Origin: Labilithrix sp.
Lineage (GTDB): Bacteria > Myxococcota_A > Polyangia > Polyangiales > Polyangiaceae
Direction: 5' to 3'
DNA: 40,163 bases
Assembly: GCA_019637105.1 (NCBI GenBank)
Contig: JAHBWF010000065.1
Span: 1 to 40,163, forward strand
Every line of letters begins with the position of its first letter. Within the stretch, counting starts at the first letter, position 1. This document shows, piece by piece, positions 7,478 through 36,808 of this stretch. Under the pieces are notes generated by a model. It saw nothing but the letters and a program-made list of their open reading frames with translations. It had not been told where the DNA came from and searched no databases. The position numbers and the translations under genes were made by a program.

Positions 7478-7485
7478 GCGACGCC

Positions 7486-11867: not shown

Positions 11868-12743
11868 TCAGCTGAACCAAGTAGTAGATGGCGAGGGTAG
11901 TAGATGGGTAACGCTGTCCCAACGGCGTCGGCCGGTTCGGTCGAAATGTTGGAGGATTTCACGGGCTTCATCTCTCACATCTACATCTGGTGACCGACTC
12001 ATCCGTTCTAGGTATTGTCGTGCCTGCTTGGCGATGCCCTGTTGCTTTCCTGCAAGGTTCATTTCCGCAAGAACGAGTCCGGCGAGCGGGTTACCCAAAC
12101 GTTGGGCTCGTCGTAGCCAGTAGCGCTCCTTCTTCCGGTCGGTACGATCGCGATAGAGGACAGCGAGATTGAATGCAGCGGCGTGGTCTCCCCTTCGGGA
12201 GCCCTCTCGATAGCAGCGCTCGGCCGCCGCAAGGTCACGGCGAGTGCCAATACCGTCGGCGTAGCAATCTCCAAGTGCGCGCAGCGCCGCTGGCTCAGCC
12301 CAAAACGCCGCGCGACGTAGATAGTTCACGGCCCTTTTCGGGGCGCGGACCAAGACGACGCCAGCGCGATCGCGACGACCTTCGAGGAGCCACTCTCCCA
12401 TATGTGAGAGGGCCAGGATGTCTCCCGTTGCAACCGCCGCTCGGAGCAATCGAAAATACCTCCGAGTTGGTCCGCGCCGCTTCAGCTCGCGAAGAGCCGA
12501 AGCCATCGACACGTTGATCGGATTCGTACCTGACACACTACTAGCACGAGTCGTCATCGTCGTCACCCGGACCAAACGGGAAGACGCCGTTCGGTGTTCG
12601 GCGGAGGCCGGTAGCCCAACAGCTCGTATTCGGTTTTCTGTATGGGGGTTCCGGAAGGCCTCGCCAACGTCGGAGATCTCGATCAGCTCCGTGAGTTCAT
12701 CCAGCTCCGTGAGCTCGTTGAGGACGAGTTGCCCGAATAGCAT
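11868..12743 (-). CDS. Sel1-repeat protein (second copy downstream of Rhs)
   Basis: 291 residues from the ATG at 12743. The first 60 residues are atypical: they begin with an imperfect internal duplication (LNELTEL, LDELTEL), and the start could instead be Met63 or Met80. From about residue 95 to 260 there are Sel1-like helical repeats, for example EPAALRALGDCYADGIGTRRDLAAAERCYREG and DHAAAFNLAVLYRDR. Sel1 repeats are protein-binding solenoids related to TPR. The gene lies 124 bases downstream of another Sel1 gene with the same repeat order, so the two look like paralogues. Base composition is visibly lower in GC than in flanking genes. As a gene behind an Rhs protein it may be an extra immunity gene, which is inference. 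Confidence 0.72.
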   Translation of the reverse strand: MLFGQLVLNELTELDELTELIEISDVGEAFRNPHTENRIRAVGLPASAEHRTASSRLVRVTTMTTRASSVSGTNPINVSMASALRELKRRGPTRRYFRLLRAAVATGDILALSHMGEWLLEGRRDRAGVVLVRAPKRAVNYLRRAAFWAEPAALRALGDCYADGIGTRRDLAAAERCYREGSRRGDHAAAFNLAVLYRDRTDRKKERYWLRRAQRLGNPLAGLVLAEMNLAGKQQGIAKQARQYLERMSRSPDVDVRDEAREILQHFDRTGRRRWDSVTHLLPSPSTTWFS

Positions 12744-12867
12744 CGCCGGATGCTCTTCCCTCTGCCCCCAACCCCGGGAGAGGACGGCGCGACAGACGCG
12801 CCTGGAGCGGCAAGGATCTTCTCAGTCATTGCCGCGGCAAAAGACGATCAAGGGCGATATCGGTTAG

Positions 12868-13560
12868 TCATCGCTTACGCGTGCTCGAGCGACGAATATG
12901 CGTACCTACGGCGTTTGTTTGACGTTGCGTTCGACGTAAAATGAGAAGGACCTTTTTGGCATCTGCATCCCCAGCGTCAGCAGCAATCCCATACCACCGA
13001 ATCGCTGCTGCGCGGCTGCGTCGAACACCTTCACCCAACTCATATGCTCTGGCTGCCGCGTATGCTGCTTCTGCGTCGCCCTGCATGCCCGCGATCCTGT
13101 ACCATTTCTGAGCTTCGGTCAGGTTCGCATTCACTCCGATGCCCCAGTAAAGGCATCGTGCGACTTCGGGAGCGGCATCGCGGTCACCCCGTTCGGCCGC
13201 TTCGCGGTACCAATGATAGGCGGCAGACAGCGACTTGCGCCGACCGAGTCCCTTCTCGAAGCAGACGGCCAAGTCGTACTGTGCGGCAGGAATGCCGAGC
13301 TTTGCAGCGTGCAGCAGGTACCGCGCTGCTGCTCGGACATCCTTGCGCATTCCCTTTCCGTGCAGGCTCCAGCTCCCAAGTGCATATGCCGCCCAAGGAT
13401 CGCCCTTCTTCGCGCCGATTCGTAGTAGCGGAACGCACTCCTTGATCACGGCTGGTGAGGAGCTACGCAGCGCTAGCGCCAGCGCCGTGACGTACTCCGG
13501 TGAAGGCCCAGGTGGCTGTCGTTCCGGCCGGTTCACCTTGGCGGCCATGGTCCCTTCCAT
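12868..13560 (-). CDS. Sel1-repeat protein, candidate Rhs immunity gene
   Basis: 230 residues, soluble, no signal peptide. Repeats fill about residues 40-215, with units such as DPWAAYALGSWSLHGKGMRKDVRAA, IPAAQYDLAVCFEKGLGRRKSLSAA and DAEAAYAAARAYELGEGVRRSRAAA. Each matches the Sel1 pattern A..LG..Y..G.GV..D...A..WY..AA. The ATG at 13560 lies inside the Rhs gene and overlaps its end by 28 bases (16 if Met5 is used), so translation is probably coupled to the Rhs reading. A small cytosolic gene directly behind a variable Rhs tail is the usual immunity position, and solenoid proteins are known in that role. Binding to the Rhs tail has not been shown. GC is lower than in surrounding genes. Confidence 0.78.
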   Translation of the reverse strand: MEGTMAAKVNRPERQPPGPSPEYVTALALALRSSSPAVIKECVPLLRIGAKKGDPWAAYALGSWSLHGKGMRKDVRAAARYLLHAAKLGIPAAQYDLAVCFEKGLGRRKSLSAAYHWYREAAERGDRDAAPEVARCLYWGIGVNANLTEAQKWYRIAGMQGDAEAAYAAARAYELGEGVRRSRAAAIRWYGIAADAGDADAKKVLLILRRTQRQTNAVGTHIRRSSTRKR

Positions 13561-16500
13561 CCGTCTGGTCTCCTCCTATTCGGGCGGCGACCATCATCAC
13601 CGCTCTCGCCACCACAGTCCCGCTGTTTTCTGGACTTGCCCTTCTGGTGCTTGCCCTTAGTCGATGGTCGCTTGTTCTTTGTGTGCTCGGTGGCCGGCAA
13701 AATGCCGGTACCTTCACCGGGAGCGTCTGCCGTGTCGGGAATCGGTGGCGACGGAAGATCCCAGGGAGGCGCCGTGGTCGGCCCCCCTAGCGGCATCACC
13801 GGATCGTACGGCATGTGTGGGAACGAAGGCCAGCCGTTCACGTCCTGCTGGGCAGCATTATCCAGCACCACATACGTTGCGACCGCTGCGAGAATGGCGA
13901 CACCGGCTATCACTAGGGGGACTGCATAGTGCCCGGTCGGATCGATGAAGTTGATCGGGTCATCGTTAACGTAGGCGTAGAAGTTCGACCCGTCCGTGAA
14001 ACGGTTTGCGTCCTTGCTGGTCCACCGGCCCGTGCTGGGATCGTAGTCGCGCGCTCCGAACCGCACGAGGCCGGTGTCGCGATCCCACAGCCCTCCGGCG
14101 AAGCCGAACGGTAGCGGCTCCGTTCCGGACTCGGTCGCGTTGCCCCACTCGTCGTAGGCGATCGTCTGGACGACCGCGCCGGTCGACGCGTTGACGACGA
14201 GGAGCGGGCTGCCGAGATGATCCTTCACGATGCGGTAGGTCGTCCCGGCCTTGATCATGAGGTCCGGCGAGTGACTCTGGGTTGCGTACACGAACCGTGA
14301 GACCACGGCGCCCAACCCGTTCAGCTCCGCGACGATCCGCCGACCGTCGTAGAGGAAGCCCTGCACCAGGGTCGCCCCGTACTTTTTACCGACACGACGA
14401 TCCTGGCCGTCGACCACGTAGTGGATGGTCTCGAACGGAGCCGCGCGCACCGCCGTACGCAGGTTCCCGTGTGCGTCGTAGACGTAGTCGAACACCGTCG
14501 CCGCGGGCGCGATCGTGCTCTTCTTCGACAGCTCGCCGTTGTTGCCGTACTGGAACGCGAAGTTGCCTTGCGTCAAGAGGCGATCTTGATCGTCGTGCGT
14601 TCCGTCGCTTCGGTTGCCGTTGTCGTCGTACGTCCACGTCCGCGTCGGCGTCGGCGAGTCGACGTAGACCTTCCAGAGCCGACCGGCCGCGTCGTACTCG
14701 TAGTCGTAGACGTGGGTGATCGCGCCGACCGTTTCGGTCTTCTTGTGGATGCGGCCGGCGCCGTCGCGTTCGTAGGTCACGCCGTACGCCGTGGCGGAGC
14801 CCGAGATCGAATGGCCCACGATCTCGCCGAACGCGTTGGGCGTGAACGTGTCGCCGACGCCGCCGACCGACGTGCTCGTGAGGAGGCCGTTCGTGCTCCA
14901 CGTCAGCGTCATGCCGCCCGCGGACGTGACTAGATCATCGCCGTCGTACACCAAGCTGATCGGGCTCGCGCCGTCGATGTCCCAGCTCGAGACGCGGAGG
15001 AAGTTGTCGTAGGTCTTGTGCACGTAGTGCGCGAACGGGCCGCTCACGTCCTGCTGCGCGAGCAGCGAGCCGTCCCACGTGTTCGTGAGCGTGACGCCGT
15101 CGCTCGTCGCGATCGTCGAGACGCGCCCCTGCGCGTCGCGACCGAACGTCGTCGTCACCGCCGCCGACGTCTGCGCCAGGCGGCCGAGAGGATCGTACCC
15201 GTAGCTCACGGGCTTGTTCGGATGGCTCGAGAGCAGCGTGAGCCCGTCGAAGTCACGCGTGTACGACGTGTCCTTGGGGTTCAGCGACGGCGTCCCGTCC
15301 GGCGGCTCGTACAGCGACAGACGGTCGTTCGGATCGAACGAGAACGCATGCGCCGGCTGACTGGGAGGAGCGATCGAGATCAGGTTGCCGGACAGATCGT
15401 AGCTCGTCGCGAGCTGGCGCCCACCCGGCAGCGTCGTCAGGAGCGGGCGGCCGTTCGCGTCGCGGCTGTCGAACGTGACGCCGAGCCCTTCCGGCGCGGT
15501 CGTGCTCGCGATCCAGCCGCTCGTCGGATCGTAGCTCGTCCCGTAGGTGCGCGAGCCCCACGTCACCAGGTCGACGCGGCCTTGGCCGTCGTAGCTGAAC
15601 TGCACCGGGTGCAGCGTCACCGGCGAGGAGCCGAGGACCGTCACCGCCGTCACGCGCTCGAGGTTGTCGAGGGTCACCTCCACCACGCGACCCGCGGGCG
15701 ACGTCGTGGTCCACTTCGCGGGTGGCCCCGCGGAGAAGACGCTCGTCGTCACCGCGGACGGCAGTCCGCTCGCCGCGCGCGTCGAGGTGATCGTCTGCGA
15801 CGTCACGCTGAACGGATCCCCCGGCGCCGCGAGCGTCGCGCTTCGCGTCTCGGTCGTCGTCATCGCGTGCGTCGTCGCCGGATATCCAATCTCGACGTTC
15901 AACGACTTGGCGAAGGACGCCGCCGTGCCCCAGCGCGGGTCGGCCGCGGTCTCGGTGATGGTCACTTTGGTCCCGTCCGGGTAGCTCGCCGCGGTCGCCT
16001 CGTCGACGAGCGTGTCGACGACGGAAGCCAACGCGGGGCCCGCTTTCGTGATCGTGCGCCGCTCGCGGATCGCGCTGTCGAAGCTCCCGCGTAGATCGAC
16101 GCGATGGTTCGTCACGCGTCCTTCGGGCGACGAGAGGGTCACCGACCATCCATTCCCGTCCGACGTCGTCATGAGGCGCGTACCCGGCGAGCCCGGCGTC
16201 GCGTCGACGTCCTTCAGGAGGCGGCCGTCGCCCGAGTATTCGAAGTGGTGGGCGTGGCCACGCGGGTCCACCAGCTCGGTGAGCAAACCCGAGGTCGTCG
16301 CGGCGAGCTGGGTGATCTCCGTCGTCACGGGGTTCGTGATGTTCGCGAGGTAGCCGTTCGCGTCGAGGGCGAGCGTCGTGACCTGACCGCGTGGCGCGGT
16401 GATGACGACCTGGCTCGCGGTCGGGCGAGCGATCGTCGTCACGTTGCTCGCGACGTCGATGATCGACGTGAGCTGTTTGGTCGTGGCGTCGTACCCGAAG

Positions 16501-24027: not shown

Positions 24028-25605
24028 TCACGAGGAGAGTGTGGGGAGACGTAGGTGCGCTGGGAGCTGTCGGACGAGCTCGGGTTTCACGACCTTGCCG
24101 AGGGCGTTCTTCGGGAGCTCCGCGAGAAACACGACGTCCTTCGGCACCTTGTACGGCGCGAGCCGCTCGCGGACGAACGCGCGGAGGTCCGCGGCCTCGC
24201 AGGCGGCGTCACCGCGTCGAACCACGCACGCCACGACGCGTTCACCCCACGCCTCGTCCGAGATCCCGACCACCGCGACCTCGGCGACGGCGGCGTGCTC
24301 GCGCAGCACCTCCTCGATCTCGAGGGCGCTCAGCTTGTAGCCGCCGCTCTTGAGGATATCCACGCTCGTCCGGCCGAGGATCCGGAACGGCGCGCCCTCG
24401 AGCGAAGGGTCGCGCGTCACCGTGTCGCCCGTGCGGAACCACGGCGCGCCGCCGCGCGGATCGGGGACGAACGCGCTCGCCGTCTCGGCGTCCTTGCGGT
24501 GGTAGCCCGCGAAGACGCTCGGCCCGCGGATCCAGAGCTCGCCGACGTCGGCGTCTTCGTGGGCGGGGCCCTCGCCGACGATCTTCGTCTCGACGGTCGG
24601 CAGCGGGAGGCCGACCGAGCCGGCGAAGCGCGGGCCGTGGAGCGCGTTGCTGATCCCGACGCCGATCTCGGTCATGCCGAAGCGCTCGAGCGGGATGGTC
24701 CCGGTCACGGCGCGCCAGCGCTCGGCCAGCGTCACCGGGAGCGCCGCGCTGCCGCTCGTCGCCAGGCGAAGCTTCGCCGCGCTCGCCGACCAGCGCGCGC
24801 GCTCCTCGTCGGTGGCGGCGTCGAACGCGAGGAAGAGCCGGTGGTACATCGCGGGGACGCCCATGAAGACGGTGGCGTTCGCCATCTCGTCCCAGACGGC
24901 CCGCGCGTCGAACGCGCGCAGGCGCGCGGCGGCGCCGGCGCCGATCGCGGTGAGCAGCGCGATCGCGAGGCCGTGCATGTGGTGGAGCGGCAGCGCGTGG
25001 AGCAGGACGTCGCTCTCCGAGAACCCCCACGCGCGGCCGACGAGCGCTTGCTGCACGCCGATGTTCTCGTGCGTCAAGACGGCGCCCTTCGGCTTGCCGG
25101 TGGTGCCGCTCGTGTAGAGCTGGAGGGCAGGCGAGGCCTCCGCGACGGCCTCGGCGAGCGAGCGCGCGTCCGCCCCCGCCGGCGTCGCGAGCAGCGGCTC
25201 GAGCGCGCGGACCGCGTGAGCGCCCGCCAGCGGCGCGGCGAGCTCGCGCATCGGCGCCGACACGAGCACGGTGCGGACGCCGGCGTCGGCGCAGAAGTAC
25301 GCGGTCTCGGGCGCGGGGTGCAGCGGCGAGAGCACCACGACGGCGCCGCCGGCGAGCAGGACGCCGAAGAACGCGGAGAGGAACCCGGCGCTCGGGTGGA
25401 CGAGGAGGGCGACGCGCTCGCCCGGCGGGAGCGGGCCGTCGGTCGTGAGCGCCGCGGCGATCGCGACGGCGCCGCGGACGACGCTCGCGTAGGAGCGCGC
25501 GCCGCCTCCGTCGTCGCCGCGCGCTCCGGCGTCGAGGGGCCCTTCGAGGACGGCGGCGCGGGGATCGTCCGCGCGCGCGGCGAAGCGTGCGAGCAGCTGG
25601 CTCAT
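24028..25605 (-). CDS. Acyl-CoA synthetase, malonyl-CoA synthetase (MatB/ACSF3)-like
   Basis: 525 residues of the adenylate-forming (ANL) superfamily. It would activate a carboxylic acid with ATP and transfer it to CoA in the cytoplasm. Visible motifs: the P-loop YTSGTTGKPKGA (164-175), FGMTE (309-313), GELWIRGPSVFAGYH (355-369), RTGD (391-394), the hinge GRTSVDILKSGGYK (411-424) and the catalytic lysine in NALGKVVKPEL (K504). GRTSVDI.KSGGYK.SALEIE is close to what I know from malonyl-CoA synthetases, but substrate choice cannot be settled by eye. The ATG has a strong AAGGAGG seven bases upstream. It is divergent from the cyanophycin operon across 395 bases. Confidence 0.88.
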   Translation of the reverse strand: MSQLLARFAARADDPRAAVLEGPLDAGARGDDGGGARSYASVVRGAVAIAAALTTDGPLPPGERVALLVHPSAGFLSAFFGVLLAGGAVVVLSPLHPAPETAYFCADAGVRTVLVSAPMRELAAPLAGAHAVRALEPLLATPAGADARSLAEAVAEASPALQLYTSGTTGKPKGAVLTHENIGVQQALVGRAWGFSESDVLLHALPLHHMHGLAIALLTAIGAGAAARLRAFDARAVWDEMANATVFMGVPAMYHRLFLAFDAATDEERARWSASAAKLRLATSGSAALPVTLAERWRAVTGTIPLERFGMTEIGVGISNALHGPRFAGSVGLPLPTVETKIVGEGPAHEDADVGELWIRGPSVFAGYHRKDAETASAFVPDPRGGAPWFRTGDTVTRDPSLEGAPFRILGRTSVDILKSGGYKLSALEIEEVLREHAAVAEVAVVGISDEAWGERVVACVVRRGDAACEAADLRAFVRERLAPYKVPKDVVFLAELPKNALGKVVKPELVRQLPAHLRLPTLSS

Positions 25606-26000
25606 CGGGGGTCCTCCTTACTACGACGGGGGCGAACATCCAGCGCCCGCGCCGATCGATCCCGGAGCGCCCGGAGCGATCGAGCTCCGCCGAACGTCCG
25701 GCGGCGTCGCGCGTACCGTCGCGCCTCGCGATCATGTCCGGGCGCGCGATCGGGATCCGCGCGCCGGACGCCGAGCCCGCGGTCGCGGTCGCAGCTCGCG
25801 CGACGCCGCCTCTCCGATGGCCGCGTGGCCGGCCGCGGCCCACGCCCAAGGACGCGAGACGAAGCAGTGGGCCCACCCCTCCGCCGATAACCGGCGCGGG
25901 CGGCCCCGGCCGCGGCCCACGCCCACGAGGACGGGTGACGAAGCGGTGGGGTCCACTCTCGGCCATGGCCGGCGGCGGCGGCCTCGGCTAACAAGGACGC
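25606..26000. promoter_or_regulatory. Divergent intergenic region, acyl-CoA synthetase / cyanophycin operon
   Basis: 395 bases without a supportable gene, between divergent starts. It holds the Shine-Dalgarno of the synthetase at its left end and a 77-78 bp tandem repeat at its right end that runs up to the iadA start. Both promoters should be here; I could not pick out reliable boxes. Confidence 0.6.
25831..25985. repeat. Imperfect tandem repeat, about 77 bp x 2 plus partial copies
   Basis: Two copies, 25831-25907 and 25908-25985, each start GGCCGCGGCCCACGCCCA, continue GGACG(C/G)G(A/T)GACGAAGC(A/G)GTGG and end in a GC-rich block. A fragment of a third copy (AAGGACGCGTGACGA, 25993-26007) runs into the start of iadA, and the end of an earlier copy is discernible just before 25831. 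Confidence 0.75.
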
Positions 26001-27191
26001 GTGACGACGCCCGCGCTAATGCTCCTCCGCGACGCCGAGGTCTACGCGCCGCTCCGGCTCGGCCGCCGCGATCTGCTCATCGGCGGCGGAGCGATCCTCG
26101 CGATCGAGGCGCGGCTGGACGACGTCGCCGTCCCGGGCTGCGCGATCGTCGACCTCGGCGGGGCCCGGCTCGTCCCCGGCTTCGTCGACGCCCACGTCCA
26201 CCTGACCGGCGGCGGGGGCGAGTCGGGGCCGGCCTCGCGCGTCCCGCGCGTGACGCTGTCGGAACTCTCGACCGCGGGGGTCACGACCGCGATCGGCGTC
26301 CTCGGGACCGACGGCACGACGCGCACGATGGCGTCGCTCGTCGCGGCCGCGCTCGGGCTCCGCGCCGAGGGGCTCACGGCGCACTGCTGGACGGGCGGCT
26401 ACGCGATGCCGCCGGTGACGCTCACCGGCTCGGTGCGCTCCGACGTCGTGTTCGTCGATCCGATCCTCGGGGTCGGCGAGCTCGCCATCAGCGATCACCG
26501 ATCGTCGCAGCCGACGTTCGACGAGCTCGTGCGCGTCGCCGCCGATTGCCACGTCGCCGGCATGATGAGCGGCAAGGCCGGCGTGCTGCACCTCCACCTC
26601 GGCGACGGCCCTCGCGGCCTCTCGCTCGTCCGCCGCGCGATCGAGGAGACCGAGCTGCCGCCGAGCACGTTCTACCCGACCCACGTGAACCGCAAGAAGC
26701 GGCTCTTCGAGGAGGCGCTCGGCCTCGCGAAGGACGGCGTCCCGGTCGACGTCACCGCGTTCCCCGTCGAGGACGGCGAGGACGCGCTCTCCGCGCCCGA
26801 CGCCGTCGCGGCCTACCTCGCGAGCGGCGCGCCGAGGCAGCTCCTCACCTGCAGCTCGGACGGCGGCGGGTGCCTCCCGACGTTCGACGCCGCCGGGCGC
26901 GTCGCGGCGATGGACGTCGGGCGTCCGTCGGCGGTCTCCGAGGCGCTGCGCGCGCTGCTCGCGCGCGGTCACGCGCTCGAGGACGTGCTCCCGGCGTTCA
27001 CCAGCAACGTGGCCGGGGTGCTGCGCCTGCCCTCGAAGGGCCGGATCGCCGTCGGCGCCGACGCGGACCTCGTGGTCCTCGACGAGCGCGGCGGCCCGCG
27101 CGACGTGATGGCCCGCGGCCGTTTCCTCGTGCGCGGCGGAGCCCCCGTGGTCGAGGGCACGTTCGAGCGCCGGTCGATTCCTTCCCCTTGA
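26001..27191 (+). CDS. iadA: Isoaspartyl dipeptidase (beta-aspartyl peptidase)
   Basis: 396 residues, amidohydrolase superfamily. It hydrolyses beta-aspartyl dipeptides; beside cphA/cphB the likely substrate is beta-Asp-Arg released from cyanophycin. Compared with E. coli IadA from memory: metal ligands HVHLTGGGGE (H65, H67, E74), AISDHRS (162-168), HLGD (H199), PTHVN (H228) and the catalytic Asp in SSDGGG (D287) are present. The carbamylated lysine of E. coli (GVKCAISDH) is replaced by Glu160 (GVGELAISDH). Start is uncertain: GTG at 26001 has AAGGA only three bases away, and an ATG at 26019 lacks a clear ribosome site. First gene of the operon, 70 bases before cphB. Confidence 0.9.
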   Translation: MTTPALMLLRDAEVYAPLRLGRRDLLIGGGAILAIEARLDDVAVPGCAIVDLGGARLVPGFVDAHVHLTGGGGESGPASRVPRVTLSELSTAGVTTAIGVLGTDGTTRTMASLVAAALGLRAEGLTAHCWTGGYAMPPVTLTGSVRSDVVFVDPILGVGELAISDHRSSQPTFDELVRVAADCHVAGMMSGKAGVLHLHLGDGPRGLSLVRRAIEETELPPSTFYPTHVNRKKRLFEEALGLAKDGVPVDVTAFPVEDGEDALSAPDAVAAYLASGAPRQLLTCSSDGGGCLPTFDAAGRVAAMDVGRPSAVSEALRALLARGHALEDVLPAFTSNVAGVLRLPSKGRIAVGADADLVVLDERGGPRDVMARGRFLVRGGAPVVEGTFERRSIPSP

Positions 27192-27261
27192 CGGGAATCG
27201 GGGCATGGGAGACTGGAGGGCGCGGGACGTTCCCGTCCCGCGGACCGAAGGCAGCCTCGAC

Positions 27262-28089
27262 ATGAGCCCAGCAAGAGTGGAAGCCGACAACAAGCGCGGC
27301 TTCATCGTCCCCATCGGCGGCGCCGAAGACAAGGAGGGGACGACCGACATCCTCCGCAAGTTCATCGACGTGTCCGGCGGCGCCGGCTCGCGCATCGTCA
27401 TCATCCCGACGGCTTCGAAGCTCGAGGACACCGGCCGCCGCTACGAGAAGCTCTTTCGCAAGCTCGGCGCCGACGAGGCGAAGGCGCTGCCGCTCGCCTC
27501 GCGCGAGGACGCGGGCAAGGACGAGTGGCTCGACTACATCGAGAAGGCCGACGGCATCTTCGTGACCGGCGGCAACCAGCTCCGCCTGACGACGATCCTC
27601 GGCGGCACCGCGATCGCGAAGGCGATCCGCCGCGCCAACGCGCGCGGCGTCGCCGTCGGCGGGACGAGCGCGGGCGCCGCCATCCTGAGCGAGCACATGA
27701 TCGCCTTCGGCGCCGAGGGCCACACGCCGCGCGCCGGCGCCGTCGCGCTCGTCCCCGGCTTCGGCCTGACGAACCGCATCATGATCGACCAGCACTTCCG
27801 GCAGCGCGACCGCCTCGGCCGACTGCTCACGGCGCTCGCGTACAACCCGTTCGCCGTCGGCGTCGGGCTCGACGAGGACACGGCTGCCTTCATCGACCAC
27901 ACGCGCAAGCTCACCGTCGTCGGCACCGGCGCGCTCACGATCGTCGACGCCTCCGAGCTCACGCACTCGTCGATCGCCGAGACGAAGGAGGGGCGGCCCG
28001 TGTGCCTGACCAACGTACGCCTGCACGTCCTCACGGCGGGCGGGTCCTTCGATCTCGAGACGCGCCGCGCGAGCGCCCCGGAGGTGTGA
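27262..28089 (+). CDS. cphB: Cyanophycinase CphB
   Basis: 275 residues, S51-type serine peptidase that cuts cyanophycin into beta-Asp-Arg dipeptides. Key features: PIGGAEDKEG near the N-terminus, FVTGGNQLRLT (about 100-110) lining the active site, and the nucleophile elbow AVGGTSAGAAILSEHM with Ser136. IDQHFRQRDRLGRLLTAL and GVGLDEDTAAF follow, all usual for the family, and length is normal (about 270-300). I chose the ATG at 27262 because GAAGG lies ten bases upstream and family proteins start near this point; an in-frame GTG or ATG at 27205 would add 19 unrelated residues. No signal peptide, so an intracellular enzyme. Three bases separate its stop from cphA. Confidence 0.96.
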   Translation: MSPARVEADNKRGFIVPIGGAEDKEGTTDILRKFIDVSGGAGSRIVIIPTASKLEDTGRRYEKLFRKLGADEAKALPLASREDAGKDEWLDYIEKADGIFVTGGNQLRLTTILGGTAIAKAIRRANARGVAVGGTSAGAAILSEHMIAFGAEGHTPRAGAVALVPGFGLTNRIMIDQHFRQRDRLGRLLTALAYNPFAVGVGLDEDTAAFIDHTRKLTVVGTGALTIVDASELTHSSIAETKEGRPVCLTNVRLHVLTAGGSFDLETRRASAPEV

Positions 28090-28092
28090 GCC

Positions 28093-30900
28093 ATGGATCT
28101 GCTCGAACGTCGCGTCTACCGCGGTCCCAGCCTCTACGCGCACTTCCCGGTGATGCGCCTCACGATCGACCTCGGCGCGCTCGAGGCCTGGCCGAGCGCC
28201 GCGATCCCCGGCTTCAACGAGGGGCTCGTGCGCGCGCTCCCGGGGCTGAAGGAGCACACGTGCTCGGTCGGCGTCGAGGGAGGCTTCCTCCGGCGCCTCT
28301 CGGAGGACGGCGGCACGTGGCTCGGGCACGTGCTCGAGCACGTGGCGATCGAGCTGCAGGTCCTGACGGGCGCGAACGTGTCCTTCGGCAAGACGCGCGG
28401 CGAGGGGACGCCGGGCCGCTATCACGTCGTCTACGAGTACGAGGAGGAGCGCGTCGGCGAGGCCGCCGGCGATCTCGCCATCAAGCTCCTCCACGACCTC
28501 TTGCCCGCGGAGCTCCGCCCCGCGTCCGCCGGCGAGGCGGCGCCGTTCGACTTCGAGGCCGAGGTCGTCGAGCTGATCGACTACGCGCAGCGCCGTCAGC
28601 TCGGTCCGTCGACGGGCGCGCTCGTCCGCGCGGCCGAGGCGCGCGACATCCCCTGGCTCCGGCTGAACGACTACAGCCTCGTCCAGTTCGGGCACGGCAA
28701 GTACCAGAAGCGGATCCAGGCGACCGTGACCTCTGAGACGCGCCACATCGCGGTGGCGATCGCGTCCGACAAGGAGGAGACGAACCGCATCCTCGGCGAC
28801 CTCGGGCTCCCGGTGCCGCGCCAGCGCCTCGTGCGCACGGCCGACGGCGCGGTGTCGGTCGCGAACCGCCTCGGGTACCCCGTCGTCGTCAAGCCGCTCG
28901 ACGCCAACCACGGCCGCGGCGTGTCGCTCGATCTCCGGACCGACGAGGAGGTGCGGGTCGCGTTCGAGCGCGCGCGCGAGCACGCGCGCAGCGTCGTCGT
29001 CGAGACGTTCCTCACCGGCTTCGACCACCGCATGCTCGTCGTGGGCGGCGAGCTCATCGCCGTCGCCAAGCGCGTCCCCGGGCACGTCGTGGGCGACGGC
29101 GAGCACACGATCGCCGAGCTCGTCGATCGCGTGAACGCCGATCCGCGCCGCGGGATCGGCCACGAGAAGGTGCTGACGCGGCTCGAGCTCGACGCGCAGG
29201 CCGAGCGCCTGATGACGGCGAAGAGCGTGACCAAGGACACCGTCCTCCCCCGCGGCGAGGTGCTCTACCTGCGCGGGACGGGCAACCTCTCGACGGGCGG
29301 GACCGCGATCGACCTCACGGACGTCGTGCACCCCGACAACCGCGAGATGGCCGTCCGCGCCGCGAAGGCGATCGGCCTCGACGTCTGCGGCGTCGACTTC
29401 ATCACCTCCGACATCTCCGAGAGCTACCGCGAGGTCGGCGGCGGGATCTGCGAGGTCAACGCGGCCCCCGGGTTTCGCATGCACGTCGCCCCGACGGAGG
29501 GCAAGCCGCGCGACGTCGCCGGGCCCGTGCTCGACATGCTCTTCCCGCCGGGGACGCCGGCGCGGATCCCGATCGCCGCGCTGACCGGCACGAACGGCAA
29601 GACGACGACCGCGCGCATGCTCGCGCACATCCAGAAGATGAACGGGCACACCGTCGGGCTCACGACGACCGACGGCGTCTACATCGACGGCGAGCGCACG
29701 GTCGTCGGCGACATGACCGGCCCGCAGTCCGCGCAGATCGTCCTCCGCGATCCCTCGGTCGACCTCGCCGTGCTCGAGACCGCGCGCGGCGGGCTGCTCC
29801 GCGCGGGCATGGGCTACCGGACGTGCAACGTCGGAGCGGTCCTCAACGTCGCGGAGGACCACCTCGGGACCAAGGGCGTCGACACGCTCGAGCAGCTCGC
29901 CGAGGTCAAGCGCATCGTCGTCGAGGTCGCGCGCGACTGCGCCGTGCTCAACGCCGACGACCTGCACTGCCTCCGGATGGCCGATCACACGAAGGCGGCG
30001 CGGATCGCCTACGTGACGATGAACCCGCGCCACGAGCTCGTGCGCAAGCACATCCGCGCCGGCGGGCTGGCGGTGGTCCTCGAGGAGGGGATCAACGGGC
30101 ACATGATCACGCTCTACGACAAGGGCGCGCACCTGCCGCTGCTCTGGACGCACCTCGTCCCGGCGACCTTCGAGGGCAAGGCGATGCACAACGTGCAGAA
30201 CGCCATGTTCGCCGCGGTCATGGCGTACGCCATGGGCGTGAAGATCGAGAACGTCCGGCAGGGCCTGCGCACGTTCGACACGTCGTACTTCCAGGTGCCT
30301 GGGCGCACGAACGTCTACGACGAGCTGCCGTTCAAGGTGATCGTCGACTACGGGCACAACCCCGCCGCGGTGCAGGCGATGAGCGACTTCGCGCAGCGGC
30401 TCGAGTGCACCGGCCGGCGCGTGTGCGTGCTCTCCGGCCCGGGGGATCGTCGCGACGAGGACCTCCGCGCGATCGCGCGCGCGGCCGGCGAGGCGTTCGA
30501 CCGGATCATCCTCCGGCGCGACGACGACCTCCGCGGGCGCGGGCCCGACGAGGTCCCGCGCATGATGGAGGCCGAGCTCCTCGCGGGCGGGTTCCCGCGC
30601 GAGGAGCTCGAGGTGATCCCCGACGAGCAGGCGGCGATCGACGCGGCGCTCCGCTCGGCGAAGCGCGGCGACCTGCTCTTGCTCTTCGCCGACAAGATCT
30701 CGCGCACGTGGAAGCAGGTCATCTACTTCAAGCCCGAGTGGGCGGAGGCGACGACGGGCGGGGCGCCGCCGCCCGCGCAGAGCGGCGCGCTGCCCCCGGC
30801 GCTCGGCTCCTCGCTGAGCCTCGGCGACGGTCTGCTCGACGGCGCCGCCATGATCCAGGACGAGCGCGGCGTCCGCCTGGCGCGCGAGTCGGACGACTGA
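28093..30900 (+). CDS. cphA: Cyanophycin synthetase CphA
   Basis: 935 residues; makes multi-L-arginyl-poly-L-aspartate without a ribosome, using ATP, Asp and Arg. Three modules are visible. The N-domain (about 1-160) has GTWLGHVLEHVAIELQ. The ATP-grasp domain (about 210-480), which adds Asp to the backbone, has VVKPLDANHGRGVSLDL (K267), RMLVVGGELIAVAKRVPG and GGGICEVNAAPGFRMH. The Mur-ligase domain (about 490-880), which adds Arg to side chains, has LTGTNGKTTTAR (K503), LETARGGLLRAGMGY, NVAEDHLG, HNVQNAMFAA and VDYGHNPAA. The last 50 residues form a Pro/Gly/Ala-rich tail beyond the usual end. The ATG overlaps no gene and lies three bases after cphB; the paralogue starts five bases downstream. 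Confidence 0.97.
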   Translation: MDLLERRVYRGPSLYAHFPVMRLTIDLGALEAWPSAAIPGFNEGLVRALPGLKEHTCSVGVEGGFLRRLSEDGGTWLGHVLEHVAIELQVLTGANVSFGKTRGEGTPGRYHVVYEYEEERVGEAAGDLAIKLLHDLLPAELRPASAGEAAPFDFEAEVVELIDYAQRRQLGPSTGALVRAAEARDIPWLRLNDYSLVQFGHGKYQKRIQATVTSETRHIAVAIASDKEETNRILGDLGLPVPRQRLVRTADGAVSVANRLGYPVVVKPLDANHGRGVSLDLRTDEEVRVAFERAREHARSVVVETFLTGFDHRMLVVGGELIAVAKRVPGHVVGDGEHTIAELVDRVNADPRRGIGHEKVLTRLELDAQAERLMTAKSVTKDTVLPRGEVLYLRGTGNLSTGGTAIDLTDVVHPDNREMAVRAAKAIGLDVCGVDFITSDISESYREVGGGICEVNAAPGFRMHVAPTEGKPRDVAGPVLDMLFPPGTPARIPIAALTGTNGKTTTARMLAHIQKMNGHTVGLTTTDGVYIDGERTVVGDMTGPQSAQIVLRDPSVDLAVLETARGGLLRAGMGYRTCNVGAVLNVAEDHLGTKGVDTLEQLAEVKRIVVEVARDCAVLNADDLHCLRMADHTKAARIAYVTMNPRHELVRKHIRAGGLAVVLEEGINGHMITLYDKGAHLPLLWTHLVPATFEGKAMHNVQNAMFAAVMAYAMGVKIENVRQGLRTFDTSYFQVPGRTNVYDELPFKVIVDYGHNPAAVQAMSDFAQRLECTGRRVCVLSGPGDRRDEDLRAIARAAGEAFDRIILRRDDDLRGRGPDEVPRMMEAELLAGGFPREELEVIPDEQAAIDAALRSAKRGDLLLLFADKISRTWKQVIYFKPEWAEATTGGAPPPAQSGALPPALGSSLSLGDGLLDGAAMIQDERGVRLARESDD

Positions 30901-30905
30901 GCCGC

Positions 30906-32657
30906 GTGGCCGAGCCCGAGGACGTCACCCCGGAGGCCGGGCGCCCGCGCGCTCGGCTCGTCGACGCGCGCCGCCTGACGGGGCCGAACCTGCTCGCGCG
31001 GACGCCGCTCGTGATCGTGGAGCTCGCGATCGACGAGGGCGGGGACCGGGCCCGCGTCCGCGCGGCGTACCTCGACGAGCTCGGGCGGATGCGCGCGGCG
31101 CTCGGGCTGCCGGCGGCGGTCGACTGGCTCGAGCGCCTCCACCGCGGCGGCGCCGTCGTCGGCTACGCGGCGCCGATCGACGTGATGCTCGCGTGCGCCG
31201 AGATGAGCGAGTGGGCGGCGCTCTCGGCGTGCGAGCTCGTCGCCGCGCGCGCGCCGCTCGCGCTCGAGCCGAAGCGCGCGGAGATCGCGGCGATGCTGGC
31301 GGAGGGCCGGAGCCCGGCGCTCCTCGCGCTCGCCGAGGAGGCGGCGCGGCGCGGCGTCCCGCTCCTCTGGGACGACGCGCGGATCAGCCTCGGGCTGGGC
31401 GCGCGCTCCTCGTGCTGGCCGCGCGACGCGCTCCCGGCGCCGGCCGACGTGCGCTGGGACGGCCTCGGCCGGATCCCGATCGCGCTCGTGACGGGGACCA
31501 ACGGGAAGACGACGACGACGCGGCTGCTGGCGCGGATGGGGCGCGAGGCAGGGCGGCGCGTCGGGGCGTCCTCGAGCGACGCGATCACGATCGGCGGCGA
31601 GGTGATCGACGAGGGCGACTGGACCGGACCCGCCGCGGCGCGCGTCGTGCTCCGGCGCGAGGACGTCGACCTCGCGGTCCTCGAGACCGCGCGCGGCGGG
31701 ATCCTGCGGCGCGGGCTCGCGGTCGACGGCTGCGACGTCGCGCTCGTCACGAACGTCAGCGACGACCACGTCGGCGGCTACGGCGTCGACGACCTCGACG
31801 CGATGGCGCGCGCCAAGGCGGTGATCCTCGACGCGCTCCTCCCGTCCGGCGTCGCCGTCCTCAACGCGCGCGATCCGCGCCTCGTCGCGCTCGCGCGCGG
31901 TCGGCCGCGGGTCGCGTTCTTCGCCGATCTCGACGCCGGCGGGCCCGAGACCGAGGCCGCGCGCGCCGCGATCGAGCGGCACCGCGCGTCCGGGCACGAC
32001 GTCGTCGTCGCCGCCGGCGGGCGGATCGTCCACGCGCGGGCGGAGGCGGAGACCCGCATAGCGGAGGTCGCGGCGATCCCGATCGCGTTCGGCGGCTCGG
32101 CCCGCTTCAACGTCGAGAACGCCCTCGGCGCGACGGCCGCGGCGATCGCGCTCGGGCTCCCGGCGGACGCGATCGCGCGCGCGCTCGAGGGGTTCGGCGC
32201 CGGCGAGAACCCCCGGCGGAGCGTCCTCGTCGAGCGGGGCGGCGTGCGGATCGTGCTGGACTTCGGCCACAACGTCGAAGGCGTCCGCGCCGTGATGAGG
32301 TTCGTCGCGTCGCTGCGCGGCGATCCGCCGCGCGGCGCCCTCACGGTCATCACGGGGAGCGCGGGCGACCGGAGCGATCGCGAGATCGCCGGCGTCGCCC
32401 GGGTCATCCACGACGCCGGCGCGGATCGCGTCGTCGTCCGCGAGCTCTCGGACTACCTCCGCGGGCGCGCGCCGGGGGAGGTCCCGGAGGTGTTCCGGCG
32501 CGAGCTCTTCGCGCTCGGGCTCGCGCCGGAGGCGTTCGCGATCGCCGCGTCGGAGGTCGACGCGCTTCGTCGCGCGCTCGCGGCGGCGCGGCCGGAGGAC
32601 TTCGTCGTGCTCCTCGTCCACGTCGACGAGGACGAGGTGCGGGCGCTCCTCGCCTGA
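30906..32657 (+). CDS. Mur-ligase-type CphA paralogue lacking the ATP-grasp domain
   Basis: 583 residues from a GTG five bases after cphA. The N-terminal 190 residues resemble the CphA N-domain start (DARRLTGPNLLART) but contain no ATP-grasp signature. The Mur-ligase domain follows with an intact P-loop VTGTNGKTTTTRLLARMG (K201), LETARGGILRRGLAVDGCDVA, NVSDDHVGGYG, RFNVENALGA and DFGHNVEGV. These blocks line up in order with CphA, so the two genes look like ancient duplicates. Reduced synthetase homologues (CphA2, CphA') are known beside cphA elsewhere; which of these, if any, this matches I cannot tell. It should be able to ligate one amino acid by acyl-phosphate chemistry, perhaps Arg or another residue onto Asp side chains. 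Confidence 0.85.
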   Translation: MAEPEDVTPEAGRPRARLVDARRLTGPNLLARTPLVIVELAIDEGGDRARVRAAYLDELGRMRAALGLPAAVDWLERLHRGGAVVGYAAPIDVMLACAEMSEWAALSACELVAARAPLALEPKRAEIAAMLAEGRSPALLALAEEAARRGVPLLWDDARISLGLGARSSCWPRDALPAPADVRWDGLGRIPIALVTGTNGKTTTTRLLARMGREAGRRVGASSSDAITIGGEVIDEGDWTGPAAARVVLRREDVDLAVLETARGGILRRGLAVDGCDVALVTNVSDDHVGGYGVDDLDAMARAKAVILDALLPSGVAVLNARDPRLVALARGRPRVAFFADLDAGGPETEAARAAIERHRASGHDVVVAAGGRIVHARAEAETRIAEVAAIPIAFGGSARFNVENALGATAAAIALGLPADAIARALEGFGAGENPRRSVLVERGGVRIVLDFGHNVEGVRAVMRFVASLRGDPPRGALTVITGSAGDRSDREIAGVARVIHDAGADRVVVRELSDYLRGRAPGEVPEVFRRELFALGLAPEAFAIAASEVDALRRALAAARPEDFVVLLVHVDEDEVRALLA

Positions 32658-32709
32658 GCCGGCGCGCCGCGTGCGCCGCCGGCGTCCGCGTCGTCCGGGC
32701 CGGAGGCCC
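32658..32709. terminator. Hairpins between the convergent cyanophycin and lipoprotein operons
   Basis: GCCGGCG (32658-32664) pairs with CGCCGGC (32677-32683), and a second stem GGGCC-GGA-GGCCC lies at 32697-32709. They sit between convergent stops at 32657 and 32724 and lack T-runs, so they are only likely terminators. Confidence 0.45.
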
Positions 32710-32723
32710 CGCCGCGTCGCGGA

Positions 32724-33593
32724 TCAGTCGCGGCAGCAGAGGACGCCGCCGCCCTCGCTCGCGGGCTTCGTCACGTTGCCGAGCTCGTTCTCGCCGTCGG
32801 CCCCGCACGCCCACGTCGCGGGCAGGGACGCGCAGAGGTCGTTCGAGAAGCGATCGAGCGGCGCGCAGGTGGCCGGGTCCGGCGCCTCGCCGACGTCGCC
32901 GCAGCCGAAGAGATCGTTCGAGCCCGGCCCGCACATGGCGCCGCCCGAGCCGGCCTGCCGGACGGCGAAGAACGCGTTCTGGTCGGCGATGCCGGAGACC
33001 GCGCAGCCCTCGCCGCCGGACTTCGCCGCGACGACCGCCGGCGACTCGCAGACGTGCCAGCCGACCTGGCAGAGATCGGCGACGTTGCACCCCTGGCCCG
33101 TGGGGTTGGCGCTGTCGTTGCCCGCGGCGCGCCCGCACGCCGGCGTCGTGGTGGTGCCGAGCCCCGGCACGGACCAGCCGCCCGCGCACGCCGCGATGTT
33201 CGGGAACGCCGTCGCCGACGCGAACCCCTCGCGCGTGCCGTCGGCGCACCCCGCGTCGTTGGTGCACTTCGCGTCCGCGCAGACGCGGCTCACGCAGTCG
33301 CGCGCGACGCTGCACGCGCGGCCGTTGGCGCACGCCGGGCAGGTGGCGCCGCCGCAGTCCACGTCGGTCTCGTCGCCGTCGCGGACCCCGTTCGAGCACG
33401 AGGGGCCCGCCGGGGCCGCGTCGCCGGCGTCGACGTCCTCGACGGCGCCGGCGTCCGCCTCCGCGGTCCTCCGCCCGGAGAGCAGGCGCGGCGAGGCGGA
33501 CTCCTCCGGCGCGCACGCGCCCGCGAGCGCGCCGGCGCCGAGGAGGACGGCGACGACGGCGACGGAGCGGTGCCTCTCTCGTGCGTCCTTCAC
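32724..33593 (-). CDS. Cys-rich lipoprotein, third gene of the DUF1592/DUF1552 operon
   Basis: 289 residues from a GTG five bases after the DUF1552 stop. Lipobox LAGAC (Cys27) is followed by an Asp/Ala-rich linker. A Cys-rich motif SNGVRDGDETDVDCGGATC with PACANGRACSVARDCVSRVC lies at about 70-115, a type common in myxobacterial surface proteins and usually disulfide-bonded. The C-terminal domain has many more cysteines (CNVADLCQVGWHVCES, ending in GGGVLCCRD), so the protein must fold outside the cytoplasm. A longer in-frame reading exists upstream but lies inside the DUF1552 gene in another frame. Function unknown; spacing suggests it works with the two genes before it. Confidence 0.75.
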   Translation of the reverse strand: MKDARERHRSVAVVAVLLGAGALAGACAPEESASPRLLSGRRTAEADAGAVEDVDAGDAAPAGPSCSNGVRDGDETDVDCGGATCPACANGRACSVARDCVSRVCADAKCTNDAGCADGTREGFASATAFPNIAACAGGWSVPGLGTTTTPACGRAAGNDSANPTGQGCNVADLCQVGWHVCESPAVVAAKSGGEGCAVSGIADQNAFFAVRQAGSGGAMCGPGSNDLFGCGDVGEAPDPATCAPLDRFSNDLCASLPATWACGADGENELGNVTKPASEGGGVLCCRD

Positions 33594-33598
33594 GGTGG

Positions 33599-34948
33599 TC
33601 AGGCCAGGATACCAGATGCGCGGCCGGTGCTCTTGTACGCGCCCTCGCCGAGGTTCGGCATCCGGACGCCGTAGAGCTTCAGGAGATCCACGTGGAGGTC
33701 GCTCATGGCCCGGTTCTGCCCGAGCTCGGTCACGGTCGCGGGCGTCGGCGTCCCGTAGACCTCCTGTCCGAGCTTCATCTCGCCGGCGACGTTCTCGCTC
33801 GCGACGAGGAGCGGGACGTTCGCCGAGTTGTGCGTCCGGCCGTCGGACATGTTGCTCCCGAGGATGGTCACGGTCTCGCCGAGGATGTTCGCCGCCTCCA
33901 GGCCGGCGATCAGCTCGGCCCACAGCCCGACCTGCACCTGGTTGATCTGGATGAGCGTCGCCCAGTTGTTGTGCGCCGAGTCGTGCTGCTCCGCCGGGAC
34001 CGTCGTGGTCGGGCTGTTCGGCCCGATGCCGTCGTTGTACATGATCGTCGCCGCGCGCGTGAGCCCACACTGCATCGCGGCGATGATGATCTTCTGCATC
34101 GTGCGGAAGTTCCGGACGTAGCTCTCGCCCGCGGTCTCGGCGGCGGGCCTCACGCAGGTGGTCGCCCGCGCCGCGCTCGTGAGCTCGCCTTCGACCTCGC
34201 GGATGCTCGCCGCGTACGCCTCGAGCCGATGCTTGTCCGCCGCGGAGAGCGTGGACTTGTGGTGGGCGTACTGGTCGAGGACGCCGTCGAGGATGCTCTT
34301 GCGCCGCTTGAGCAGGTACGCCGCCCGCTCGTTGGAGAGCTTGTCGCTCGAGCCGAAGACGCGCGTGAACATCTGGAGCGGATCGATGATGTTCGAGATC
34401 GGGCTCGTGGCGTCGCGCCAGGCGATCGAGTTGACGTAGTTGATCGAGCCGACGCGATCGTGTCCCTCGTCCCAGCTCGGGACCTGGTTGAAGCCGGCGT
34501 GCAGGCTCCGGATGGGCGCGTTCGGCTCGGTGTCGGCGATGATCTGATCGAGCGACTTCGCGCAGCGCTGGTAGTTCGGATCGGAGCTCGGGTTGGGGGC
34601 GTTCGTCGTCCCCACCGGCGTCGAGGAGAGGAACCCCGCCGTCCCCGACCAGTGGACGTCGAAGTTGTTGACCGCCTTGAAGCCGCGCATGACGGCGACG
34701 TTCGGCGCGACGCCGAGATCGGCGAGGGGCTTGAGCGCGCCGCCGCGCGCGCCGGCGTAGCCCCAGTCCCCGTTGGCCCCGTCGGGCATCGGGGCGCCGC
34801 TGCCGAAGAAGCAGCCGATGAAGCGCTTCTTGAGCGGCGCCGGCTGCGCGTGGGCGAGGCGGACGGGGAGGGCGGACTCCAAGAGCGGCAGCGCGATGGA
34901 GATCCCGAGGCCGCGGAGGACGTTGCGTCGTGTCAGTCGAGAGCTCAT
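33599..34948 (-). CDS. DUF1552 family protein, Tat-type signal
   Basis: 449 residues. The N-terminus SRLTRRNVLRGLGISIALPLL carries an RR followed by a hydrophobic stretch and AHAQPA, a twin-arginine export signal. The body matches what I know of DUF1552: RFIGCFFGSGAPMPDG, LKPLADLG, FDVHWSGTAGFLSSTPV, SLDQIIA near 132, and the end region ETVTILGSNMSDGRTHN with NVPLLVAS. The family is typical of Planctomycetes and Myxococcota and is usually paired with DUF1592-type proteins, as here; biochemical activity is not established. Start ATG at 34948 is two bases after the stop of the upstream gene, so the two are surely co-transcribed. Confidence 0.9.
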   Translation of the reverse strand: MSSRLTRRNVLRGLGISIALPLLESALPVRLAHAQPAPLKKRFIGCFFGSGAPMPDGANGDWGYAGARGGALKPLADLGVAPNVAVMRGFKAVNNFDVHWSGTAGFLSSTPVGTTNAPNPSSDPNYQRCAKSLDQIIADTEPNAPIRSLHAGFNQVPSWDEGHDRVGSINYVNSIAWRDATSPISNIIDPLQMFTRVFGSSDKLSNERAAYLLKRRKSILDGVLDQYAHHKSTLSAADKHRLEAYAASIREVEGELTSAARATTCVRPAAETAGESYVRNFRTMQKIIIAAMQCGLTRAATIMYNDGIGPNSPTTTVPAEQHDSAHNNWATLIQINQVQVGLWAELIAGLEAANILGETVTILGSNMSDGRTHNSANVPLLVASENVAGEMKLGQEVYGTPTPATVTELGQNRAMSDLHVDLLKLYGVRMPNLGEGAYKSTGRASGILA

Positions 34949-34950
34949 GG

Positions 34951-36627
34951 TCACCCCGCGCCTCCGTGGCTGACGCTGCGGAAGGCCTTGCTCGTCACCA
35001 GCCGCCTGATCATCGCGCGGAGGCTCGGCGGCCTGCCGTCGGCCGAGTAGGTGAGGTAGGCGAGGAGGTCGGCGTCGGCCTTCGACGCGGCGTGGACGAC
35101 GCGGCGGGTCGAGTAGACGGTGAGCTTCTCCGCCGCGCACCGGTGGTAGTCGGGGAGCTCCGCGATCATCGTGTTGAGCTCGCCGAAGCGGCTGAACGGC
35201 TTGCCGAGCAACGTGCTCGCGGTCTCGACGGGCCTGCCCGTGTCGGCGTACGCGTCGCGGAGACGTCCGCGCATGTCGAAGCCCTCGAGGCCGAGCCCGA
35301 GCGGATCCATGTACTCGTGGCAGCCCGCGCACGCCGGCCCCGCGTTGCGGTGGCTCTCGAGGCGCTCCTTCACGGAGGCGTTCGCGGGGATCGACTCCGA
35401 CACCTTCTGGATCTGCTCGAAGAGCGCGGAGTCCGGCGGCGGGATCACCTTGCAGAGGAGGCGGTCCTGCACGAGGCGCCCGCGGTGGATCGGGCTCGTC
35501 TTCAGCGACGAGGCGCTCAAGGACAGCCAGCTGCCTTGCTGAAGGACGCCGCCGCGCTCGTCGATCGCGACGCGCGTGAGCTCGCGCGAGAACTCGCCGA
35601 CGACGTTGTAGTGCGTGGCGAGCTCCTGATTCAGGTACGTGAACCCCGGCTGGACGATCGCCGTCACCGGCAGGTCCTCCTTGAGGACGTCCGCCATGAC
35701 GCGCCAGCTCTCGTTCCACATCGCGTGCTCGAGCGTTCCGGGCGCGGTGCTGTCGTACGCGCGGAAGTCGAACCACTGCCCCATGAAGCTCTGGACGAAG
35801 ACGTCCGTGCGGGTGTCGATGAGGCGCTCCACCTCGGCGACCAGGGCGTCGGGCTGGGAGACGAGCGTCCCGTCGACCGCCCTCCGCCAGAGCTCGTCGT
35901 CCGGGATCGACGCGGTGAACATGAAGGAGAGGCGGCTCGCGAGCTCGTAGGCGTCGAGCTCGCGCTCGCCGGTGAAGTCCGGCGTCGGCGGCGCCTCGAT
36001 GCGCGTCACGAGCTGCGGCGCGAGCAGGACGGCCCCGAGCGCCGCGCGGAGGCCGTCGAGGAAGACGGCGTTCGGCTCGGTCAGCGCGCTCTGGGCGAGC
36101 GCGACGCCCTCGGCGTAGCGCTTCGCGAGCGCCTCCGCCTCGGCCGGCGCGAGCGGGCGGCCGTAGGCGCGGAGCGCGAACGGCTCGACGATCGACTTCG
36201 CGCACGCGTCGTACGGGAGCCGCGCGGCCTCGTCCACCGAGCACGTCATCACCTTGGGCGAGACGACGGCGCGGTCGAGGACGGCCTCGAGCGTCTCGGA
36301 CAGATCGCGCACGGCCTTGGTGTCGAGGTTCGTCCAGGGCACGGCGTCGAAGCCCGAGAACTGCGTGGTCGCCGTCCACGCCTTCTGGAGATCGAGCGGG
36401 AGGCGCTCGCCGATCAGGTCCGAGACCACGTTCAGGTACTCGCGGTTCGACAGGTTGCGCGTCATCGCCGGCCCGGCCGTGAGCGCCTCGCGCAGCGCGG
36501 CGAGGGCGGGATCCTCGTCGCCCGAGCCCGGGCGTTCGTTCCGGAGCGAGTCCGAGACGTCGTCGCACCCCGCGGCGGCGGACACCGCGAGCGTCGACAG
36601 GAGCAGGACCGGCGTGCGCCAGCGCAT
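34951..36627 (-). CDS. DUF1592/DUF1588/DUF1595/DUF1585 family lipoprotein with CxxCH motif
   Basis: 558 residues from the ATG at 36627; longer in-frame starts were rejected because the signal peptide with lipobox AAGC (Cys21) begins here. The segments follow the DUF1587-1595-1592-1588-1585 order: LSNREYLNVVSDLIGERL, FALRAYGRPLAPAEAEAL, YELASRLSFMFTASIPDDELW, FVQSFMGQWFDFR, TSPIHRGRLVQDRLLC, and the last block with SLRAMIRRLVTSKAFR. A CAGCH motif (C433, C436, H437; then EYMDPLGLGLEGFD) could bind a c-type haem. These proteins are thought to be exported and redox-related, but no substrate is known. It leads the operon with DUF1552 and a Cys-rich lipoprotein. Confidence 0.9.
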   Translation of the reverse strand: MRWRTPVLLLSTLAVSAAAGCDDVSDSLRNERPGSGDEDPALAALREALTAGPAMTRNLSNREYLNVVSDLIGERLPLDLQKAWTATTQFSGFDAVPWTNLDTKAVRDLSETLEAVLDRAVVSPKVMTCSVDEAARLPYDACAKSIVEPFALRAYGRPLAPAEAEALAKRYAEGVALAQSALTEPNAVFLDGLRAALGAVLLAPQLVTRIEAPPTPDFTGERELDAYELASRLSFMFTASIPDDELWRRAVDGTLVSQPDALVAEVERLIDTRTDVFVQSFMGQWFDFRAYDSTAPGTLEHAMWNESWRVMADVLKEDLPVTAIVQPGFTYLNQELATHYNVVGEFSRELTRVAIDERGGVLQQGSWLSLSASSLKTSPIHRGRLVQDRLLCKVIPPPDSALFEQIQKVSESIPANASVKERLESHRNAGPACAGCHEYMDPLGLGLEGFDMRGRLRDAYADTGRPVETASTLLGKPFSRFGELNTMIAELPDYHRCAAEKLTVYSTRRVVHAASKADADLLAYLTYSADGRPPSLRAMIRRLVTSKAFRSVSHGGAG

Positions 36628-36808
36628 GATCTGCGCACGCGCAAGACACGTGCCGCGCGACCGCGCTCCGGACCTCCGAGGATCCAGGACCTGCGCGATC
36701 ACCCTGGTGCGTCGATGCCCCAGGTTGGGCCGGGGCAACGTTCGTCCACGCTCGGCGAGGCCGCTGCGCAGCGGCTCGCGCAAGCGGCGCGCGGGCGCGC
36801 CGACGGCG
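36628..36808. promoter_or_regulatory. Upstream region of the DUF1592 operon
   Basis: 181 bases between two minus-strand genes, expected to carry the DUF1592 operon promoter. No recognisable boxes, operator or repeat were seen. Confidence 0.35.

Follow-up and report, generated by a model that had tools for sequence, protein, structure and literature searches.

The cyanophycin operon of Labilithrix

The window, by which we mean the whole stretch of DNA analyzed, is contig JAHBWF010000065.1 of Labilithrix sp., 40,163 nucleotides in length. On its plus strand, at positions 26001 to 32657, lies a cyanophycin operon in which a full cyanophycin synthetase (CphA) gene, encoding an N domain, an ATP-grasp (G) domain and a Mur-ligase (M) domain, is followed by a gene for a shortened CphA paralogue that has the M domain and lacks an ATP-grasp domain. 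This second ligase is the subject of the present analysis. The four genes are as follows.

26001..27191, plus strand: iadA, isoaspartyl dipeptidase, GTG start (TIGR01975, 388 bits; cut-off, 331)
27262..28089, plus strand: cphB, cyanophycinase (TIGR02069, 265 bits; cut-off, 127)
28093..30900, plus strand: cphA, full cyanophycin synthetase with N, G and M domains (TIGR02068, 1156 bits over 3-859 of 862)
30906..32657, plus strand: Mur-ligase-only CphA paralogue, 583 amino acids, GTG start (Pfam, partial TIGR02068 match, tree and fold)

An initial annotation made from the DNA alone had placed these four genes consecutively with gaps of 70, 3 and 5 bases, which were exact on an open reading frame (ORF) check, and its names for the first three were borne out by scores above the family-model cut-offs. 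The spacing suggests that all four share one transcript. A consensus scan of positions 25500-33000 found no promoter- or terminator-like sites, which is weak proof at 72 to 76% G+C, and the window gave no Rfam matches. The order iadA-cphB-cphA-ligase recurs in other genomes (see below), so the arrangement in the window is not a chance one.

Domain architecture of the paralogue

The paralogue comprises the following features.

30951..31241, plus strand: reduced CphA-type N domain, residues 16-112, start DARRLTGPN (structure model and VIA match to CphA chains)
31251..31415, plus strand: remnant of the G-domain entry, residues 116-170, equivalent to about CphA 150-207, with the ATP-grasp core after it absent (hhalign)
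31467..32654, plus strand: M domain with lid, residues 188-583 (PF08245, PF02875; fit to 7wae_A)
31491..31514, plus strand: P-loop TGTNGKTT, residues 196-203 (K201 and T202 in 39 of 39 members)
32439..32468, plus strand: loop RELSDYLRGR, residues 512-521, at the place of the MurE DNPR loop (alignment)
32619..32621, plus strand: His572, where CphA mostly has Asp or Glu (His in 36 of 39 members)

Pfam recognized Mur_ligase_M (PF08245) and Mur_ligase_C (PF02875), and no ATP-grasp family matched the paralogue at an E value of 1 or any of 23 family members at 0.1. With TIGR02068 the match was confined to model positions 477-849 of 862 and scored 348 bits, below the cut-off of 850, so the protein is not a CphA1: its G domain is absent, while the M domain is complete with P-loop and lid. 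The only part of the G domain that aligns to CphA is the entry segment, with an hhalign score of 58.9; none of 30 column-shuffled controls scored above 22.3. The initial annotation had read the protein in the same way, with an N-domain start, a complete Mur-ligase site and no ATP-grasp domain. The structure model shows the reduced N domain beginning at DARRLTGPN, and the Pfam domains, P-loop, lid and conserved catalytic residues together make up the full Mur-ligase site. An ATP-grasp fold hidden in residues 1-190 was looked for in the structure model and by comparison with CphA chains and was not found, the N fold being of CphA type; the absence of other families from the VIA structure-match lists was not counted as exclusion.

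Descent from CphA

An IQ-TREE analysis covered 101 M domains, the number that remained after nine named rows and the CphA sequences from 38 loci had been dropped; incomplete M domains, CphA' among them, were left out, and FolC was not in the tree. The 31 rows of the ligase family formed one clade (99/98) nested inside CphA, and the six Mur-ligase outgroup rows separated at 100/100. A MurE-like placement was thus rejected. A FolC identity was likewise rejected, with 35.5 bits to TIGR01499 (cut-off, 163). Position within CphA and the CphA N-domain fold place the protein in the CphA superfamily, and the gene probably arose from CphA by loss of the ATP-grasp core.

The CphA proteins adjoining the ligase also formed one clade, of 26 rows (100/100). 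It also includes L103 and L106, each on a contig that stops within or at cphA, and L039, which carries its ligase on a separate contig. The ligase-free CphA proteins of L093 and L036-L038 fell just outside it, and no ligase was found near cphA in the stretches of these four loci examined. This shared clade would suit a reading of the ligase as a catalytically inactive subunit that binds to or regulates the CphA oligomer. So would the CphA1 tetramer, which is held partly via M core and G core contacts (available sections of PMC9427784). However, an inactive subunit should have lost part of its catalytic residues, and 11 catalytic positions are invariant across the 39 members, which makes this explanation very unlikely.

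Loss or decay of the ATP-grasp domain with retention of M is seen elsewhere. Among Deinococcus plasmid proteins, that of L154 has no ATP-grasp domain and keeps M, and that of L152 has weak G matches; both cluster with regular CphA proteins from other bacteria (100/99). They are annotated "Mur ligase family" (L154:6026-8200, Deinococcus deserti; L152:7702-10218, D. taeanensis), with no cphA annotated in the stretch shown. A 701-amino-acid Duganella protein (L117:10226-12328) is encoded immediately downstream of a full cphA, on the other strand; M was its only matching domain, and its start is CphA-like by eye. Well-supported branches force at least three changes, in the ligase family, Deinococcus and Duganella; if such proteins are stand-alone side-chain ligases, enzymes of this type would have been invented repeatedly.

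Catalytic and pocket residues

Conservation was counted over 39 members, the window copy and near copies included. The ATP and Mg residues of TeCphA1 (Lys499, Thr500, Glu558, Arg731 and His748; available sections of PMC9427784) align to Lys201, Thr202, Glu260, Arg438 and His455 of the paralogue, and none of them varies among the 39 members. The same holds for His288, Lys304, Asp452, Asn456, Arg519 and Arg521. The CphA signatures GD..GP and ARGG are retained in members, and the Mur-ligase outgroup rows mostly differ. With catalytic residues and signatures conserved, the protein is expected to be catalytically active and to recognize an acceptor resembling that of CphA.

The loop before RGR is different. 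MurE has a DNPR motif of known role, and we take the paralogue loop RELSDYLRGR to occupy its position, from alignment and not from a bound structure. In the tree alignment, an acidic residue (D/E) four positions before RGR is present in 94 of 97 CphA rows versus 9 of 39 members, and a Tyr two before RGR in 32 of 39 members (33 of 39 in a separate count of Tyr517); three rows (L053, L056 and L058) look one column off in these loop counts. Near the C terminus, the residue at CphA position 867 is D in 30 of 31 rows of one CphA set and D/E in 52 of 59 rows of another, and it is here that most members have His572. Loss of the acidic loop residue and replacement of D/E by His572 suggest that a cationic amino acid is less strictly required, so that the substrate is perhaps not Arg.

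These changes bear on the possibility that the ligase adds Arg in trans by the same reaction as the CphA M domain, as a helper that completes or repairs under-arginylated chains. The catalytic residues and RGR motif common to CphA and the shared operon would fit such a helper. However, both acidic positions are mostly lost and the paired CphA retains its own M site, so that we consider Arg addition alone an unlikely, if serious, contender. It overlaps with the reading favored below, which leaves the amino acid open, and the likelihoods given here do not sum to one.

The HxxEH motif of the N region is found in none of the 39 members, in all 18 paired-set CphA proteins whose N domain is visible and in 44 of 62 other CphA proteins; the window cphA has it. 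In CphA1, primers are made through this peptidase motif (available sections of PMC9262961), so primer making, if any, stays with CphA. By the same token, CphA can make its own primers, as has been published for enzymes of this kind (PMC9262961), which speaks against a ligase that makes or recycles small β-aspartyl compounds, such as β-Asp-X primers, instead of acting on long polymer. The reduced N domain, the fact that such a role needs no backbone domain, and the presence of iadA near 18 of 21 ligase loci would all agree with it. However, iadA is also near the ligase-free cphA of one genome (G151), and this alternative appears improbable.

Distribution and linkage to cphA

In its own genome (assembly of 8.45 Mb, 334 contigs, 91.5% complete), the ligase query at an E value of 1e-5 matched only itself and the M domain of cphA. 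Among 59 genomes, comprising this one and 58 relatives, 10 others gave near-full-length matches with 52 to 83% identity. Across 290 genomes of the class, the ligase was found in 41 (E value, 1e-70), and all 41 also have cphA, that of G189 as a contig-end fragment only. The two genes adjoin on one contig in 38 of the 41 and, by coordinates, lie on different contigs in G022, G189 and G216. The Fisher p of 2e-28 for this co-occurrence ignores kinship and was not used as evidence.

In a scan of one genome per species, the 80 loci listed held at least four members, each directly after cphA; the matches listed included two Acidobacteriota, Lysobacter sp. Root916 and Plesiocystis pacifica. Four of 15 matching plasmid records hold a member, two from Ruegeria, one from Shinella and one from Roseateles XES5; the last is marked unverified, and its ligase copy is nearly that of Shinella. 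All four show the order cyanophycinase, cphA and then a gene annotated only as "Mur ligase family protein". The ligase gene thus occurs in at least three phyla, Myxococcota, Acidobacteriota and Pseudomonadota. Of the three ligase loci in which iadA was not seen, two begin inside cphA.

That a standard ligase of MurE or FolC type, with no tie to cyanophycin, stands here by chance would be in keeping with Pfam, which gives generic Mur ligase domains only. Tree placement inside CphA, the fold and the linkage to cphA leave that explanation with scarcely any credibility.

Beyond iadA, cphB, cphA and the ligase, no widely recurring neighbor was found that would name the amino acid; other shared neighboring ORFs were antisense- or shifted-frame-like or common to few relatives. 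In the two Ruegeria plasmids, the cyanophycin genes are preceded upstream by genes resembling saccharopine dehydrogenase and by aldehyde dehydrogenase genes (L150:2043-4664, L153:1954-4575). These hint at lysine, and being confined to a single genus, they were not used.

Comparison with known systems

Compared with CphA1 (7wae, 7lg5, 7lgq), the paralogue has the same N-domain start, G-domain entry, complete M domain with lid, P-loop, Mg and catalytic residues and operon, but it lacks the ATP-grasp core, its N domain is reduced and without HxxEH, and the loop before RGR is changed. CphA2 (8fxi, 7ta5), which repolymerizes β-Asp-Arg, is likewise a reduced CphA with a single ligase site remaining. 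In CphA2 the G site is kept and the M P-loop and M lid are absent (available sections of PMC9427784); the paralogue is the reverse, with P-loop and lid present and the G core absent. A shortened second CphA gene also adjoins cphA in betaproteobacteria, and this we take to be CphA'. Such ORFs were seen in at least 16 loci among the matches listed; they match N and G, reach only 127-246 of the 387 M positions and lie upstream of cphA, again the reverse of the paralogue. The possible match to reduced CphA2 or CphA' layouts that the initial annotation had raised therefore failed for both. MurE and other Mur ligases share the fold and catalysis, but have neither the CphA N domain nor the CphA signatures.

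A similar plan is seen in actinobacteria, in Mur-ligase-only ORFs beside cphA with the start GPNLYF:

L090:10496-13075
L100:10726-13023
L102:8527-10248

All three have a CphA-like start, no ATP-grasp match, YLRGR and His at 572, but their N region is different and two have a long C-terminal extension. Their grouping with the ligase family was weak in the careful tree (86/31) and had a support of 98 in a quick tree.

Published cyanophycin clusters are made up of genes for CphA1, cyanophycinase and dipeptidase (PMC10206079), and a ligase of the present type does not appear in the available sections of that paper. For Lysobacter capsici, cphB and then cphA are given, and the available sections of PMC4742617 name no further gene there. 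Nineteen groups of "cyanophycin ligase-like proteins" have been listed, without domain detail in the available sections (PMC3646047), and members of the ligase family may have been seen before, without a function, among them. We found no description of a Mur-ligase-only CphA paralogue in the open-access literature.

Other observations

Three ligases of one genus (g140; L141, L142 and L149) are full length and carry a linker of variable length, Pro/Ser-rich by eye, inserted in the M domain. Six genomes of the same class, in family f15 (G108, G113, G138, G150, G155 and G159), have tandem cphA genes of about 970 to 1014 bits, one of them cut by a contig end, and five of the six have a further shortened copy on another contig. 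A phage search returned an M domain match (40% identity, 59% coverage) at 6719-7738 of an unannotated "Bacteriophage sp." from human feces (MT838013.1). In the window itself, a DUF1552 (HXXSHH) protein gene adjoins one for a DUF1592/1588/1585 protein downstream of the operon (33599-36783, minus strand), and G+C dips to 0.61 at 12001-14000, being 0.68 to 0.76 elsewhere.

Proposed function

The reading we moderately favor is that the paralogue is an active, ATP-dependent, Mur-type side-chain ligase derived from CphA that partners the full CphA of the same operon, with an amino acid that is likely other than, or in addition to, Arg. The interpretation in the initial annotation, in which backbone extension is lost and Arg or another amino acid may be ligated to side chains, is supported overall. 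Because the ATP-grasp site is missing, we infer that backbone Asp cannot be added. The ligase would work beside CphA, most likely taking an Asp of cyanophycin or of one of its fragments, phosphorylating its side-chain carboxylate and then joining an amino acid to the activated Asp, as the CphA1 M domain does with Arg. The presumed amino-acid loop differs from that of CphA, so a different or additional amino acid is likelier than Arg alone. The cphB and iadA products would then degrade the ligase product.

Several points weigh against this proposal. Tyr517 and His572 are not invariant, the equivalence of the loop with that of MurE is an assumption of ours, and the changed loop does not exclude Arg. 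No member of the 23 searched matches the N-domain model PF18921 at an E value of 0.1, which makes polymer binding by the N domain uncertain. The G151 genome has cphA, cphB and iadA with no ligase within 17 kb, so CphA can do without the ligase there. To our knowledge, no activity has been measured for any family member. A more specific version, which we offer tentatively and think rather less probable, is a two-side-chain cyanophycin, an undescribed natural polymer in which CphA would lay down Asp and Arg and the ligase would write a second, non-Arg amino acid onto Asp.

We regard the family as real: a conserved, putatively side-chain-type ligase of cyanophycin operons and a variant of CphA, as far as we found uncharacterized, whose function is read from sequence. 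As a conserved further gene, it extends the described cluster of synthetase, cyanophycinase and dipeptidase. As the mirror image of CphA2, it would be useful for studying the mutual dependence of the two CphA sites. If another amino acid is indeed added, the family would reveal a natural modified cyanophycin and would supply an independent side-chain ligase with which designed polyaspartate polymers could be made.
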